64,000 bases of DNA, taken from contig NZ_JAGQBB010000006.1 in assembly GCF_024345415.1 (NCBI RefSeq), positions 1-64,000 of the forward strand. The letters are read 5' to 3'. This DNA is from Synechococcus sp. Tobar12-5m-g. GTDB lineage: Bacteria; Cyanobacteriota; Cyanobacteriia; PCC-6307; Cyanobiaceae. The translations under genes and the position numbers were made by a program. Below the pieces are notes generated by a model. The model was not told where the DNA came from. It did not search any database and worked only from the letters and a program-made list of their open reading frames with translations. Below, one piece after another: positions 44,337-48,642 of this stretch. The first letter of the stretch is position 1; every line of letters starts with the position of its first letter.

Positions 44337-45584
44337 ATGGCCCTGCTGCTCCTGGCCTTCCTGGCCGGTGCGCTGACGATCCTGAGCCCCTGCATCCTTC
44401 CCGTGTTGCCGTTCGTGTTCACCGGGGCCGGGCGGCCGTTCCACCGCCGGGGTCTGCCTCTGTTGGCTGGGATGGCGCTGTCCTTCACCACCGTTGGGGT
44501 TCTGGCCGTGGTAGGGGGGAACTGGGTGGTTCGGGCCCACCAGTTCGGGCGGATGGCGGCCCTGCTGGTGTTGGCTGCCTTCGGGTTGGCGCTGCTGTTT
44601 CCCGCCCTGGCCAACCGGCTCAGCCAACCGCTGGTGCGGCTGGGGCAGGGTCTGTCGCGACGATCGGATCAGGCTCGAAGCTCCGGGGCAACGGCCGCTT
44701 CATCCGCTCTGCTGGGCGTGGCGATTGGCCTGTTGTGGGCGCCCTGCGCCGGCCCGATCCTGGGTCTGGTGCTGACCGGCGCGGCGCTCCAGGGGGAGCC
44801 TGCCGGCACGGCACTGTTGCTGCTGGCCTATGCCGTTGGCGCCAGCACCTCCCTGGCGATCGCCCTGCTCGCCGGCGGGCGCATGGCCAACATCCTGCGG
44901 CGTTCCCTTCAGAGCACCGCCTTGTTGCGCCGGGCCCTGGGGGGTGCGGTGATCATCAGCGTGGGAGCGATCGCCCTGGGCCTGGAGCAGGCCTCCCTGG
45001 CCCGCTTCGCCCTGGCGGACACCAATGCCGTTGAGCAGACCCTGCTCGCGCAGGTTCCCGTCGCTCCCCGGGCCGGGGCAACCGCCACTGCGGCGAGCCC
45101 GCTGCCCGTTCTCGGCACCCTGCCGCCCTTCCCGAAGGGGGCGGTGTGGCTGAATTCGCCCCCACTCACCCGTGATCAGCTCTGGGGCAAGGTGGTGCTG
45201 GTGGACATCTGGACCTATTCCTGCATCAACTGCGTGCGGACCCTCCCCCACGTGCGCTCCTGGGCCAAGAAATACAAGGACCACGGTCTGGTGGTGATCG
45301 GGGTCCATTCACCGGAGTTCCCCTTCGAGCGCGACCTCGGCAATGTTCGGCAGGCCACCCGCAAACTTGGGGTCACCTACCCGGTGGTGATCGACAACGA
45401 CTTCGCGATCTGGAAGGCGTTCAACAACACCTACTGGCCAGCCTTCTATTTCATCGACACCCAGGGCCGCATCCGCGCCACCCACTTCGGCGAAGGTGCC
45501 TATGCCAAATCAGAGCAGACGATTCAGCAGCTGCTTCGGGAGGGTGGCTTCAGCCCTGTGCCCACCGGTCTGGTCAAGCCCTGA
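44337..45584 (+). CDS. CcdA-like transmembrane reductase fused to a thioredoxin-like domain
   Basis: Moves reducing power across the membrane to the periplasm or lumen. The 415 residues have a six-helix CcdA/DsbD-type core (about 1-225) with its two conserved cysteines in LSPCILP (C19) and WAPCAGP (C137). This is joined to a TlpA/DipZ-like thioredoxin domain (about 255-405) with active site WTYSCINC (C296, C299) and the cis-proline region TYWPAFYFID. The fusion form resembles mycobacterial DipZ. It follows DUF4079 and precedes the Kir-like gene by six bases. Confidence 0.9.
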   Translation: MALLLLAFLAGALTILSPCILPVLPFVFTGAGRPFHRRGLPLLAGMALSFTTVGVLAVVGGNWVVRAHQFGRMAALLVLAAFGLALLFPALANRLSQPLVRLGQGLSRRSDQARSSGATAASSALLGVAIGLLWAPCAGPILGLVLTGAALQGEPAGTALLLLAYAVGASTSLAIALLAGGRMANILRRSLQSTALLRRALGGAVIISVGAIALGLEQASLARFALADTNAVEQTLLAQVPVAPRAGATATAASPLPVLGTLPPFPKGAVWLNSPPLTRDQLWGKVVLVDIWTYSCINCVRTLPHVRSWAKKYKDHGLVVIGVHSPEFPFERDLGNVRQATRKLGVTYPVVIDNDFAIWKAFNNTYWPAFYFIDTQGRIRATHFGEGAYAKSEQTIQQLLREGGFSPVPTGLVKP

Positions 45585-45590
45585 ACCAGC

Positions 45591-46529
45591 ATGGCCATCT
45601 TGAACTCCCTTGGCCCCGCCCTACGTTCCCTGCTCCGGCGTCACCGCCTGACCCTCGGCCACCAGCGCAGCCCCTGGACCAGCCTCTGGCGCCAGCCGGT
45701 GTCGATGGCACTGCGGATGCCCTGGCCTGTGTTCTTCCTGGCCATGACCAGCCTTTATCTCATCGAAGTGGTGATCTTCGCGATCGCCTTTCAACTGGAT
45801 GGCCGCCACCTGGAGGGGGAAGGAGCCATGGGCCTGCCCACCAGTGTGGTGTTCTCGCTTCAGAATCTCCTCAGCGCCAGCTTCCAGCCCGCCAGGGTCA
45901 CCTCGATTTACATCCTGGCACTGGCGTCGTTGCAACAGATTGCCGGGCTGCTGACCAACGCCATGGTCACCGGTCTGTTCTTTCTGCGCTTCACCAAGGT
46001 GGATGCCCCGCTTCGGTTCAGCCGAAATCTGTGTCTGAGTTTCTTGCCCGGGGGCTATCTCAGCTGCCGGTTTGTGACCAGCGATCCCACCTACTGGTTG
46101 CGGGTGTCCTATTCGATGGTGCTCTTCCTCGATGAGGAGATCGAACCCGGGGTGGTGCAACGGCGGCTTCATCCTCTGCCGCTGCTCAACAACAGAACAC
46201 CCCAGCTGCATGTGACCGCCGTGCTCAGCCACAGCCTGGGCGCCGAGAGCCCCTTTGTTCGCCATGGAATGGAGGCGATCCGGAGGGCCAGCGGGGCCAT
46301 CCTGGTGATGGTGGAAGGCACCGACGAGGTGACCGGATCGCCGCTGCTTCAACTGCACAACTACCGGATCGAGGACATCCTCCAAGGGCATGTGTTCGAT
46401 GATTTGGTGTCCGAAGACGCCAACGGGCTCCGCAGGGTTGATCTGGATGCCTTGCATCGCACCCGCTTGATCGGCGAGCCTCCCCACACCGTCCGCTCTG
46501 ATCCATCCAAACGTTCCGCTCGCCTGTAA
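45591..46529 (+). CDS. Inward-rectifier (Kir) channel-fold protein with altered selectivity filter
   Basis: The 312 residues align along the length of bacterial Kir channels: slide helix and TM1 (WPVFFLAMTSLYLIEVVIFA, about 45-64), pore region FSLQNLLSASFQP (88-100), TM2 (SLQQIAGLLTNAMVTGLFFL then RF), and the cytoplasmic immunoglobulin-like domain (CRFVTSD, LHVTAVLSHSLGAESPF, then VMVEGTDEVTGSPLLQLHNY). In the filter, the usual T-x-G-Y-G is SASFQ (95-99), without gaps in the flanking alignment. A K+ conductance is therefore doubtful. It lies between CcdA-thioredoxin and msrA. Confidence 0.82.
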   Translation: MAILNSLGPALRSLLRRHRLTLGHQRSPWTSLWRQPVSMALRMPWPVFFLAMTSLYLIEVVIFAIAFQLDGRHLEGEGAMGLPTSVVFSLQNLLSASFQPARVTSIYILALASLQQIAGLLTNAMVTGLFFLRFTKVDAPLRFSRNLCLSFLPGGYLSCRFVTSDPTYWLRVSYSMVLFLDEEIEPGVVQRRLHPLPLLNNRTPQLHVTAVLSHSLGAESPFVRHGMEAIRRASGAILVMVEGTDEVTGSPLLQLHNYRIEDILQGHVFDDLVSEDANGLRRVDLDALHRTRLIGEPPHTVRSDPSKRSARL

Positions 46530-47209: not shown

Positions 47210-47935
47210 TTACAGCCCCGCAAACCACTCGTAACCCTGGTCCTCCCAGGTGCCGCGGCGCTCTTCCAGGCTGGCCATCACCTTCAGGCCCGTGACCCAT
47301 TTGCTGAGCTTGTAGCCGAGTTTGATCGGCGTGGCGAGGCGCACTGGGGCCCCATTGGCTGCCGGCAGAGGTGCACCGTTCATGGCGGTGGCCAGCAGGG
47401 TCTGGGGATGCAGGGCCGAGGCGATGTCCCAGGTCTCGAAGTACTGATCGGCCGAGTCGATGGCCAGGTAGCCGCCCAAATTGGAGATCCCAGCCAGAGC
47501 GAGCACATCGGCCAGGCGCACCCCGGACCAGGCCACGATCGCTGCCCACCCTTCCACGCAGACGTGGCGCATCACCAGCTCCTGCTGGGGCAGGGCCGCC
47601 AGCGCCGCCAGATCGAGGCTCAGGGGCCGGCTCACCAGGCCGTCCACCCGTAGCCGGTAGCGGGCGGGATCCAGCTGGGGCACTCCGTTGAAACTGTTGA
47701 CCAGCAGATCCTTGGGGTCCACCTGATCCCGGCGGAACAACGGCACCGGGCCCTTGCCCTGCATCAACGCCTCGATCCGTTCGTTGAGCGGCTGGGTGGC
47801 ATTCCCCACCGTTTCGCTGAGGCCATTGAGGGCGCAGCCCCCCAGCAGGAGCGAGGAGCCCCCGCTGAGACCAAGCCCAAGCAGCTGGCGGCGATTCAGG
47901 TGGGTCGCATCTTTCGTGGCAGCTTGTTGTGCCAT
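47210..47935 (-). CDS. Sulfite-oxidase-fold molybdopterin lipoprotein (MsrP-like)
   Basis: ATG 47935 gives 241 residues. The N-terminus has a twin-arginine motif (NRRQLLG, residues 14-20) and a lipobox LLLGGC (Cys34), so a Tat-exported, possibly lipid-anchored protein. The Mo-binding cysteine is in RHVCVEGW (Cys126), and the fold's other blocks are RYRLRVDGLV, GVRLADVLALAG, and APVRLATPIKLGYKLSKW. Relatives oxidise sulfite or reduce sulfoxides (MsrP). It overlaps the cytochrome b gene by one base and is convergent with msrA. Confidence 0.88.
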   Translation of the reverse strand: MAQQAATKDATHLNRRQLLGLGLSGGSSLLLGGCALNGLSETVGNATQPLNERIEALMQGKGPVPLFRRDQVDPKDLLVNSFNGVPQLDPARYRLRVDGLVSRPLSLDLAALAALPQQELVMRHVCVEGWAAIVAWSGVRLADVLALAGISNLGGYLAIDSADQYFETWDIASALHPQTLLATAMNGAPLPAANGAPVRLATPIKLGYKLSKWVTGLKVMASLEERRGTWEDQGYEWFAGL

Positions 47936-48552
47936 CAGGCGAACATCGAGCGCAGCAGCCGCAGGCCACCGATCCGCCAGGAAAGCGTCACATGGGCAAG
48001 CATCAGCAGGGCGATGGCGGGGATCGTGGCCAGGTGGCTGATCCTCAGGGTCTGCCAGCTGGTGGAGCCAAACGCCTCGCCGAAGCTGAACAGGCCCGAG
48101 AGCCACCAGAACTGGGCCGGTTTATACATGGCCATTCCCGTGATCAGGCCGAAGGCCAGCAGGATCAGCATCAGGGTGTACACCAGCCGGTGGGCTGAGA
48201 GCCGCCGCTTGGCTTTGTTTTGGCTGGCTTTCAGCGTGCCGAGGTCACCGGTGTCCGCCAGCTTTCGGCGCCGTTGCCCGATCAGCAGAGCGATCCAGAC
48301 GCCGAGATTGAGGGCGTAAAGGCCCATGAAGCCGAAGTGCCAGTCACGTCCGCCCGCCAACCAGCCCCCCAGGGTGAGGAGCTCCGGCACGGTGGCTCCA
48401 CCCCGACCGCCGAACACCGGGTTGGCGTTGTAGATCTGCAGGCCGCTGGCCGCCATCACCAGCAGCACCAGCAGGTTGAGGCTGTGGAAGGCCCGCGTCC
48501 AGAGGGGGCTGTGGCGGATCGGCGCTGGGTGATGGGCCATTGCCTCGTCCAT
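47935..48552 (-). CDS. Cytochrome b561-type membrane subunit, partner of the molybdoprotein
   Basis: ATG 48552 gives 205 residues (ATG 48540 is also possible). About four membrane helices carry histidines suitable for b-type haem: RAFHSLNLLVLLVMAASGLQ, DWHFGFMGLYALNLGVWIAL, SAHRLVYTLMLILLAFGLIT, and ATIPAIALLMLAHVTLSWRI. Such proteins feed electrons to sulfite-oxidase-fold enzymes (like MsrQ does for MsrP, though this is a different cytochrome family). The stop overlaps the molybdoprotein start. Confidence 0.88.
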   Translation of the reverse strand: MDEAMAHHPAPIRHSPLWTRAFHSLNLLVLLVMAASGLQIYNANPVFGGRGGATVPELLTLGGWLAGGRDWHFGFMGLYALNLGVWIALLIGQRRRKLADTGDLGTLKASQNKAKRRLSAHRLVYTLMLILLAFGLITGMAMYKPAQFWWLSGLFSFGEAFGSTSWQTLRISHLATIPAIALLMLAHVTLSWRIGGLRLLRSMFA

Positions 48553-48642
48553 GGATTTCGGTTGGATCGTTGCCGTGCTTCCTGATCCCTGTACCGCCGA
48601 GCCCGGTGATTGGATTCCCAACCCGGGCTGCCCAGCTGGGCT

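Follow-up and report, generated by a model that had tools for sequence, protein, structure and literature searches.

Can a protein with the architecture of a Kir channel still form a pore once its K+ filter has been replaced, and if so, for which ions and under what control? This question is raised by a gene of the cyanobacterium Synechococcus sp. Tobar12-5m-g that lies in a stretch of 64,000 nucleotides (contig NZ_JAGQBB010000006.1, positions 1 to 64,000 of the forward strand), referred to here as the window. A preliminary description recognized a Kir fold with an altered filter next to redox genes, and offered three readings of the product: a non-K+ pore, a sensor, or a structural relic. Here, we show that the altered Kir family is real and conserved. 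It is a variant of the NirBac-like kind and carries a cysteine pair and a redox linkage.

Kir architecture and the replaced filter

The gene is an ATG-initiated ORF at 45591..46529 on the + strand and encodes 312 amino acids. In a phmmer comparison with PDB chains, the window protein matches KirBac1.1 (2wll, 7swj and 1p7b) over residues 30-299 with E-values of 2e-28 to 4e-28, and KirBac3.1 at 4e-22 and weaker; eukaryotic Kirs also match, more weakly than KirBac1.1. The sole Pfam match is IRK_C (33 bits, E 5.9e-8), which corresponds to the Kir cytoplasmic domain, and NCBIfam yields no match at E 0.1. The protein has the Kir architecture, namely TM1, pore helix and TM2 followed by a Kir cytoplasmic domain. 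TM2 spans approximately residues 106-134 (45906..45992, + strand), as placed by the alignments. Residues conserved at 95% or more in canonical and altered rows alike include W45, F48, F88, T127, F131, R133, F143, S144, R160, H214, G243 and D245, among others. The TM2 gate residues T127 and F131 are found in all 25 aligned members of the altered family, and we take F131 to occupy the place of F146, the bundle-crossing phenylalanine of KirBac1.1.

Within this architecture, the codons for S95-A96-S97-F98-Q99 (45873..45887, + strand) lie at the place of TVGYG in ungapped alignments to KirBac1.1 and 12 canonical KirBacs. A Kir fold with its filter replaced at residues 95-99, as first described, is thus borne out by the alignment to KirBac1.1 (E ~2e-28). 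The gapless alignment claimed for pore helix, TM2 and cytoplasmic domain holds from pore helix to TM2 but not in the cytoplasmic domain, which is nearly gap-free, with three single-residue gaps: one residue fewer in the betaA-betaB turn and two gaps near the C-terminus. When the 25 family members are compared, profile to profile, with 12 canonical cyanobacterial KirBacs, the filter columns again align without gaps (probability 99.9%, E 1.6e-36). The chance that the real filter lies elsewhere in the protein was also looked into by alignment, and no TxGYG motif occurs anywhere in the window protein.

SASFQ departs from the TxGYG-type filter of Kir and KirBac K+ channels, and the departure extends to the family. 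GYG is absent from all 25 aligned altered members and present in all 80 other cyanobacterial Kirs (two alignments of 40) as well as in all 20 canonical control loci, among which two recur from the earlier sets; this survey covered cyanobacteria and, of the matches in the 388-genome class search, a part. Among 12 further partial ORFs of canonical type, ten carry GYG and one (L109) is without the loop; the remaining one (L112, genome G290), a short ORF of 122 amino acids, has G-F-G instead of G-Y-G. The 25 strings found at residues 95-99 are SASFQ (10), SASFR (3), ANGFN (3), ANGFD (2) and, once each, VASLS, ANAFN, ANTFD, ANGFT, NNGFN, ANAFS and ANGFS. Despite this variety, position 97 is S, G, A or T in every member, position 98 is F in 24 of 25, and position 99 is polar throughout, with no Gly in any member. 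All 25 rows have lost the second filter glycine, and 17 have lost both.

Three loci (L011, L012 and L042) have SASFR at the filter place and, nine residues beyond it, where TM2 begins (roughly residues 104-108 of the window protein), the string T-S-G-Y-G, where the window protein reads T-S-I-Y-I. We rejected this string as a second filter, as nine residues is too distal and the motif is missing from the window protein. It is probably there by chance.

Distribution, descent and selection

Altered Kirs were found in 27 of 400 genomes of the window's own family, taken from its named relatives to be the Cyanobiaceae. Fifteen carriers belong to what we call clade A, 11 to clade B, and one (G296) is intermediate. 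A scan of species genomes gave 12 relatives with 66-84% identity to the window protein, from Synechococcus, Cyanobium, Aphanothece or an uncultured cyanobacterium, and identity to the window protein falls to 41-45% in clade B. When the 25-member profile was run against 388 genomes of the class, the altered family ended at E 1e-94 and the next match stood at 5e-48; in the sampled cyanobacterial genomes, the altered clade is restricted to Cyanobiaceae. The 25 aligned members omit loci that repeat the same gene, L005 (a near copy of L004, also SASFQ), and L014 and L044, which are disrupted so that the filter is unreadable.

The phylogeny called for in the preliminary description was run for cyanobacteria, with 68 rows (26 altered, 42 canonical) and with the filter and cysteine columns excluded. 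In this unrooted tree, all 26 altered rows fall on one side of a branch with support of 100/100. Clade A is supported at 97/95, the intermediate as its sister at 97/90, and clade B at 94/87. The branch that separates the altered family from canonical prokaryotic Kirs is very long (2.2 + 1.3 changes per column), which implies that the entire protein has been remodelled, beyond the filter alone. A single origin of the altered family would be the simplest reading of this tree.

Selection on the new loop was gauged in both clades. Across 14 rows of clade A, pN/pS of the five filter codons is 0.10, the lowest among nine regions, compared with 0.39 for the whole gene, 0.35 for the pore helix, 0.36 for TM2, 0.34 for the cytoplasmic domain and 0.83 for the post-filter residues; pore helix and TM2 overall are not more constrained than the cytoplasmic domain. 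Across 11 rows of clade B, the values are 0.26 for the filter, no lower than the 0.25 of TM2, 0.31 for the gene and 0.58 post-filter. The sample of five codons is small, and the synonymous sites of clade B approach saturation. For the window gene, dN/dS is 0.17 against L003 and 0.16 against L013; as judged from these ratios, the gene is under purifying selection. These values for the nearest relatives, together with filter columns that are the most conserved region in clade A, speak against a structural relic.

The charge of the outer mouth adds a complication. Most clade A rows have R or K near it (R99, or R/K102), which implies that cations are not favoured there. In clade A, Gln99 occurs with R, K, M or G at position 102, and all three rows with Arg99 have Glu102, which looks like a balancing of charge at the outer mouth.

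The altered gene is also dispensable, since it is disrupted or reduced to a remnant in four genomes. The clade A copy of G061 is disrupted, and three more of the 400 genomes (G362, G308 and G220) hold remnants alone, that of G220 being a 56-residue match with stops at G220:C1:43365-43532. The remnants in G308 (L106) and G220 adjoin a DM13 gene; that in G362 is L105.

The window genome (2.95 Mb, 47 contigs) has two Kir genes, the altered one and a canonical one with S-I-G-Y-G; they are about 31% identical and lie on different contigs. The canonical KirBac (L002:1471-2445, with a neighbouring ORF at L002:795-1505) adjoins a rubrerythrin-like gene and lies near an HxlR-like regulator, both judged by eye, surroundings that differ from the redox cluster of the window. 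A match of canonical type is present in 14 of the 15 clade A genomes, the window's included, and in 2 of the 11 clade B genomes. At E <= 0.001, none was found in the other nine clade B genomes, two of which are 82-88% complete, or in the clade A genome G008, except for weak pore-only matches in G202, G012 and G106. This implies that the altered family can occur alone. The canonical paralogue is matched by nine plasmid records, of which two served as reference rows, and among viral contigs no relative of the canonical Kir profile could be confirmed. A comparison of picocyanobacteria (PMC9361551) lists an inward rectifier cluster (CK_00046459), which may be either the altered or the canonical family, for 45 of its 67 freshwater strains, for 11 of its 17 brackish ones and for none of the marine strains. 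Among the open-licence papers listed in searches on prokaryotic Kir, KirBac, NirBac and Kir redox, titles and abstract beginnings contain no description of this altered-filter Kir family.

Cysteine pair and gene neighbourhood

The window protein has exactly two cysteines, Cys148 (codon 46032..46034, + strand) and Cys159 (codon 46065..46067, + strand). Both are present in all 25 aligned family members, in which any other column has Cys at most once. Neither occurs in the 80 GYG Kirs or in 22 control rows, KirBac6.1 included. Such a pair, invariant and specific to the family, is a pattern expected of a dithiol redox switch. From the alignment, the two residues probably lie on the two strands of the betaA-betaB hairpin below TM2, where a turn at 152-155 would set them face to face. 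AlphaFold2 models of the whole protein and of the cytoplasmic part (12 rows each) are poor, with mean pLDDT of 38.5 and 37.4; both show strands at 148 and 159, and the geometry of the pair hence rests on the alignment and on low-confidence strands. Between the cysteines, His156 is present in 23 of 25 members; the window protein has Tyr at this position, and L017 has Cys. In mammals, Kir channel activity is modulated by oxidation of cytosolic cysteines (PMC11631806).

In the window, the altered Kir is the fourth gene of a same-strand cluster. DM13 (Pfam PF10517; 43056..43583, + strand), the first gene of a possible operon, is followed by DUF4079 (PF13301; 43587..44300, +), by a CcdA/DsbD-type membrane domain fused to a thioredoxin-like domain (DsbD_2, DsbD_TM, AhpC-TSA and Redoxin; 44337..45584, +), by the Kir gene, and by msrA, encoding peptide methionine sulfoxide reductase (PF01625, TIGR00401; 46554..47192, +). 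The spacings agree with those first reported: the Kir ORF begins six bases after the CcdA-thioredoxin gene, and msrA 24 bases after the Kir stop. Since the gaps (3, 36, 6 and 24 bases) are short and all genes are on one strand, the cluster may be one operon. A promoter scan of the cluster gave no promoter-like site, and a terminator scan gave one terminator-like site, on the opposite strand, fewer than in shuffles. Downstream on the - strand are two recurring neighbours, a molybdopterin oxidoreductase-domain protein (PF00174; 47210..48106) and a cytochrome b561-type membrane protein (PF01292; 47935..48621, start codons unsettled). The two ORFs overlap as called (47210-48621), and the pair recurs near altered Kirs.

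The proposed link to redox genes was supported in one part and not in another. In the 12 fetched clade A loci, Kir is always near parts of the window's gene set, in three gene orders: after CcdA-thioredoxin (L003, L013, L014), between DUF4079 and CcdA-thioredoxin (L011, L012), or before DM13 (L004-L010). CcdA-thioredoxin lies within 5 kb of Kir in 9 of these 12 loci, and DM13 in 12 of 13 when the window is included. A close CcdA-thioredoxin is found in 17 of the 400 family genomes, 12 of 15 clade A carriers versus 5 of 385 others (Fisher 9e-17, uncorrected for shared descent). In all 12 clade A genomes with both genes, the two share a contig and are no more than 1.5 kb apart (5-1448 bases, match to match); they abut directly in seven, counting the disrupted G061 copy. 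The unsupported part is msrA, which is near Kir in just 2 of 13 clade A loci, the window and L011 (L003 ends 2 kb after the gene), and which we reject as a conserved partner. Five genomes (G021, G141, G175, G314 and G326) hold CcdA-thioredoxin and DM13 on the same contig and give no altered Kir match.

Outside clade A, the linkage is thinner. DM13 occurs in 76 of the 400 family genomes; all 15 clade A carriers have it, as do 6 of the 11 in clade B. Redox-type genes chosen from those of the window lie within 5 kb (between midpoints) of 5 of 11 clade B loci versus 0 of 20 canonical Kir loci, a count that excludes EamA, includes some clade B loci cut by contig ends, and has a Fisher value of 0.003 uncorrected for shared descent. 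Around L094, L096, L097 and L099 of clade B and the intermediate L098, the searched redox genes are absent; L098 has EamA alone. Two clade B Kirs have as neighbours same-strand genes of the peroxidase family, both of catalase-peroxidase size: one 4 bases before Kir (L089:2800-4989), and one 453 bases after it (L090:2186-4555). From Pfam and length, both may be KatG-like. The redox linkage is mostly within one clade and may reflect shared descent. The thioredoxin domain of the CcdA-thioredoxin neighbour presumably faces outward, and because the Kir domain should be cytosolic, a direct partnership between the two is unlikely.

A proposed pore of altered selectivity and its rivals

Of the readings offered at the outset, a non-K+ pore is the likeliest, by analogy with two precedents. 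NirBac1.1 and 1.2, which have replaced P-loops, are tetrameric and pass Na+, K+ and Rb+ (PMC4607889); that paper reports stable tetramers, non-selective monovalent cation flux and activation by POPG, and its main text does not contain the words cysteine, redox, disulfide or thioredoxin. The window protein shares with this type a Kir architecture and a P-loop other than TxGYG. Like NirBac1.1, 1.2 and 2.1 (from Anaeromyxobacter and Gemmatimonas), it is Kir-like apart from the replaced K+ filter; unlike them, it has other P-loops (NirBac2.1 has TTGTD) and comes from another phylum, with NirBac compared here by description only. The other precedent is weaver GIRK2 (mouse G156S), in which K+ selectivity is lost through a G-to-S change at the first Gly of GYG, the position of S97 (PMC9001731); weaver, however, is a single mutation and not an evolved family. 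KirBac1.1, KirBac3.1 and KirBac6.1 of Synechocystis resemble the window protein in architecture, gate residues and Kir cytoplasmic domain, whereas KirBac1.1 and KirBac6.1 have TVGYG and lack Cys at 148 and 159. KirBac6.1 restores K+ uptake to E. coli, and Synechocystis cells that lack it grow unchanged at high salt or high osmolarity (PMC13099474); PMC4607889 cites a modest growth phenotype that depends on K+.

We tentatively favour a working channel with the Kir fold whose selectivity for K+ is reduced or altered, and we put this explanation at just short of even chances. That the window protein forms a tetramer and conducts seems to us probable, and loss of K+ selectivity, given conduction, very likely. 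Four copies would assemble into a KirBac-like pore with slide helix, TM1, pore helix, TM2 gate and cytoplasmic ring. In place of the K+ filter stands a conserved different loop, mostly of the form small - A/N - small - F - polar, and from this replacement we expect cations to pass with a preference for K+ that is slight or changed. The remodelled cytoplasmic domain carries the fixed Cys148 and Cys159, probably face to face on the betaA-betaB hairpin after TM2, and the pore would open or close as this pair is oxidized, to a disulfide or another modified thiol state, and reduced again. Such gating would tie membrane potential or ion balance to redox stress, matching the surrounding redox cluster. 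Thiol gating, which we infer from the cysteine pair and the neighbourhood, is the weaker part of the proposal and somewhat doubtful. A bolder version, in which these proteins are a Kir class of small cyanobacteria in its own right, with a new filter and thiol switch that co-evolved on the Kir scaffold and with redox state in direct control of a non-K+ membrane conductance, is unlikely.

It is also possible, if unlikely on balance, that the protein does not conduct, and that its membrane part serves only to anchor a cytoplasmic ring, which senses redox state or a ligand and has another protein of the cluster as its partner. The loss of the filter, the neutral or positive post-filter loop of clade A, and a pore helix and TM2 no more constrained than the cytoplasmic domain are all consistent with such an anchor, as are the domain's own invariant residues and the recurring redox cluster. 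An anchor, however, has no need of fixed filter columns (clade A) or of the TM2 gate residues T127 and F131 (25/25), and no effector domain is attached. The cysteine pair has a further reading, in which the cysteines, together with the almost invariant His156 (C148-x7-H156-x2-C159; His156 in 23/25), coordinate a metal or haem and form no redox disulfide; the Tyr at this site in the window protein and the Cys in L017 make this improbable.

Two more rivals, each of which we give a small chance, keep K+ in the picture. One is a still K+-selective channel with an unorthodox filter. The precedent is TbIRK of Trypanosoma brucei, likewise a Kir homologue without the signature filter, for which PMC5429665 reports GGYVG and K+ selectivity (PK/PNa above 7), and an aromatic residue is kept at the Tyr position in 24 of 25 altered members. 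TbIRK, though, is eukaryotic and retains three glycines, whereas the altered family has lost the second filter glycine throughout and both in 17 of 25, and in GIRK2 a single G-to-S at the same site abolishes selectivity (PMC9001731). The other is a regulatory subunit that joins the cell's canonical KirBac in heterotetramers. Co-occurrence in 14 of 15 clade A carriers fits this idea, but the two Kirs of the window genome are only about 31% identical and encoded on separate contigs, and G008 and nine of 11 clade B genomes are without a canonical Kir (E <= 0.001), weak pore-only matches aside. On the same ground, we reject an obligate heteromer for the altered family as a whole. A pseudogene, sequencing error or misalignment might be suspected from the disrupted and remnant copies in G061, G362, G308 and G220; for the window gene, this is refuted by intact replaced-filter ORFs in many separate genomes, by purifying selection and by the ungapped alignment.

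GYG is the defining filter of K+ channels, and here an entire clade has lost it and keeps another loop under selection. SASFQ/R, VASLS, ANGFN and the other strings form a natural series from which to learn how selectivity is made and remade on a single scaffold. If the two cysteines do gate the pore, the protein would be a bacterial redox-gated Kir channel of simple two-cysteine design, and a role would be gained for a bacterial Kir-type protein, in a group with few clear roles in the cell.
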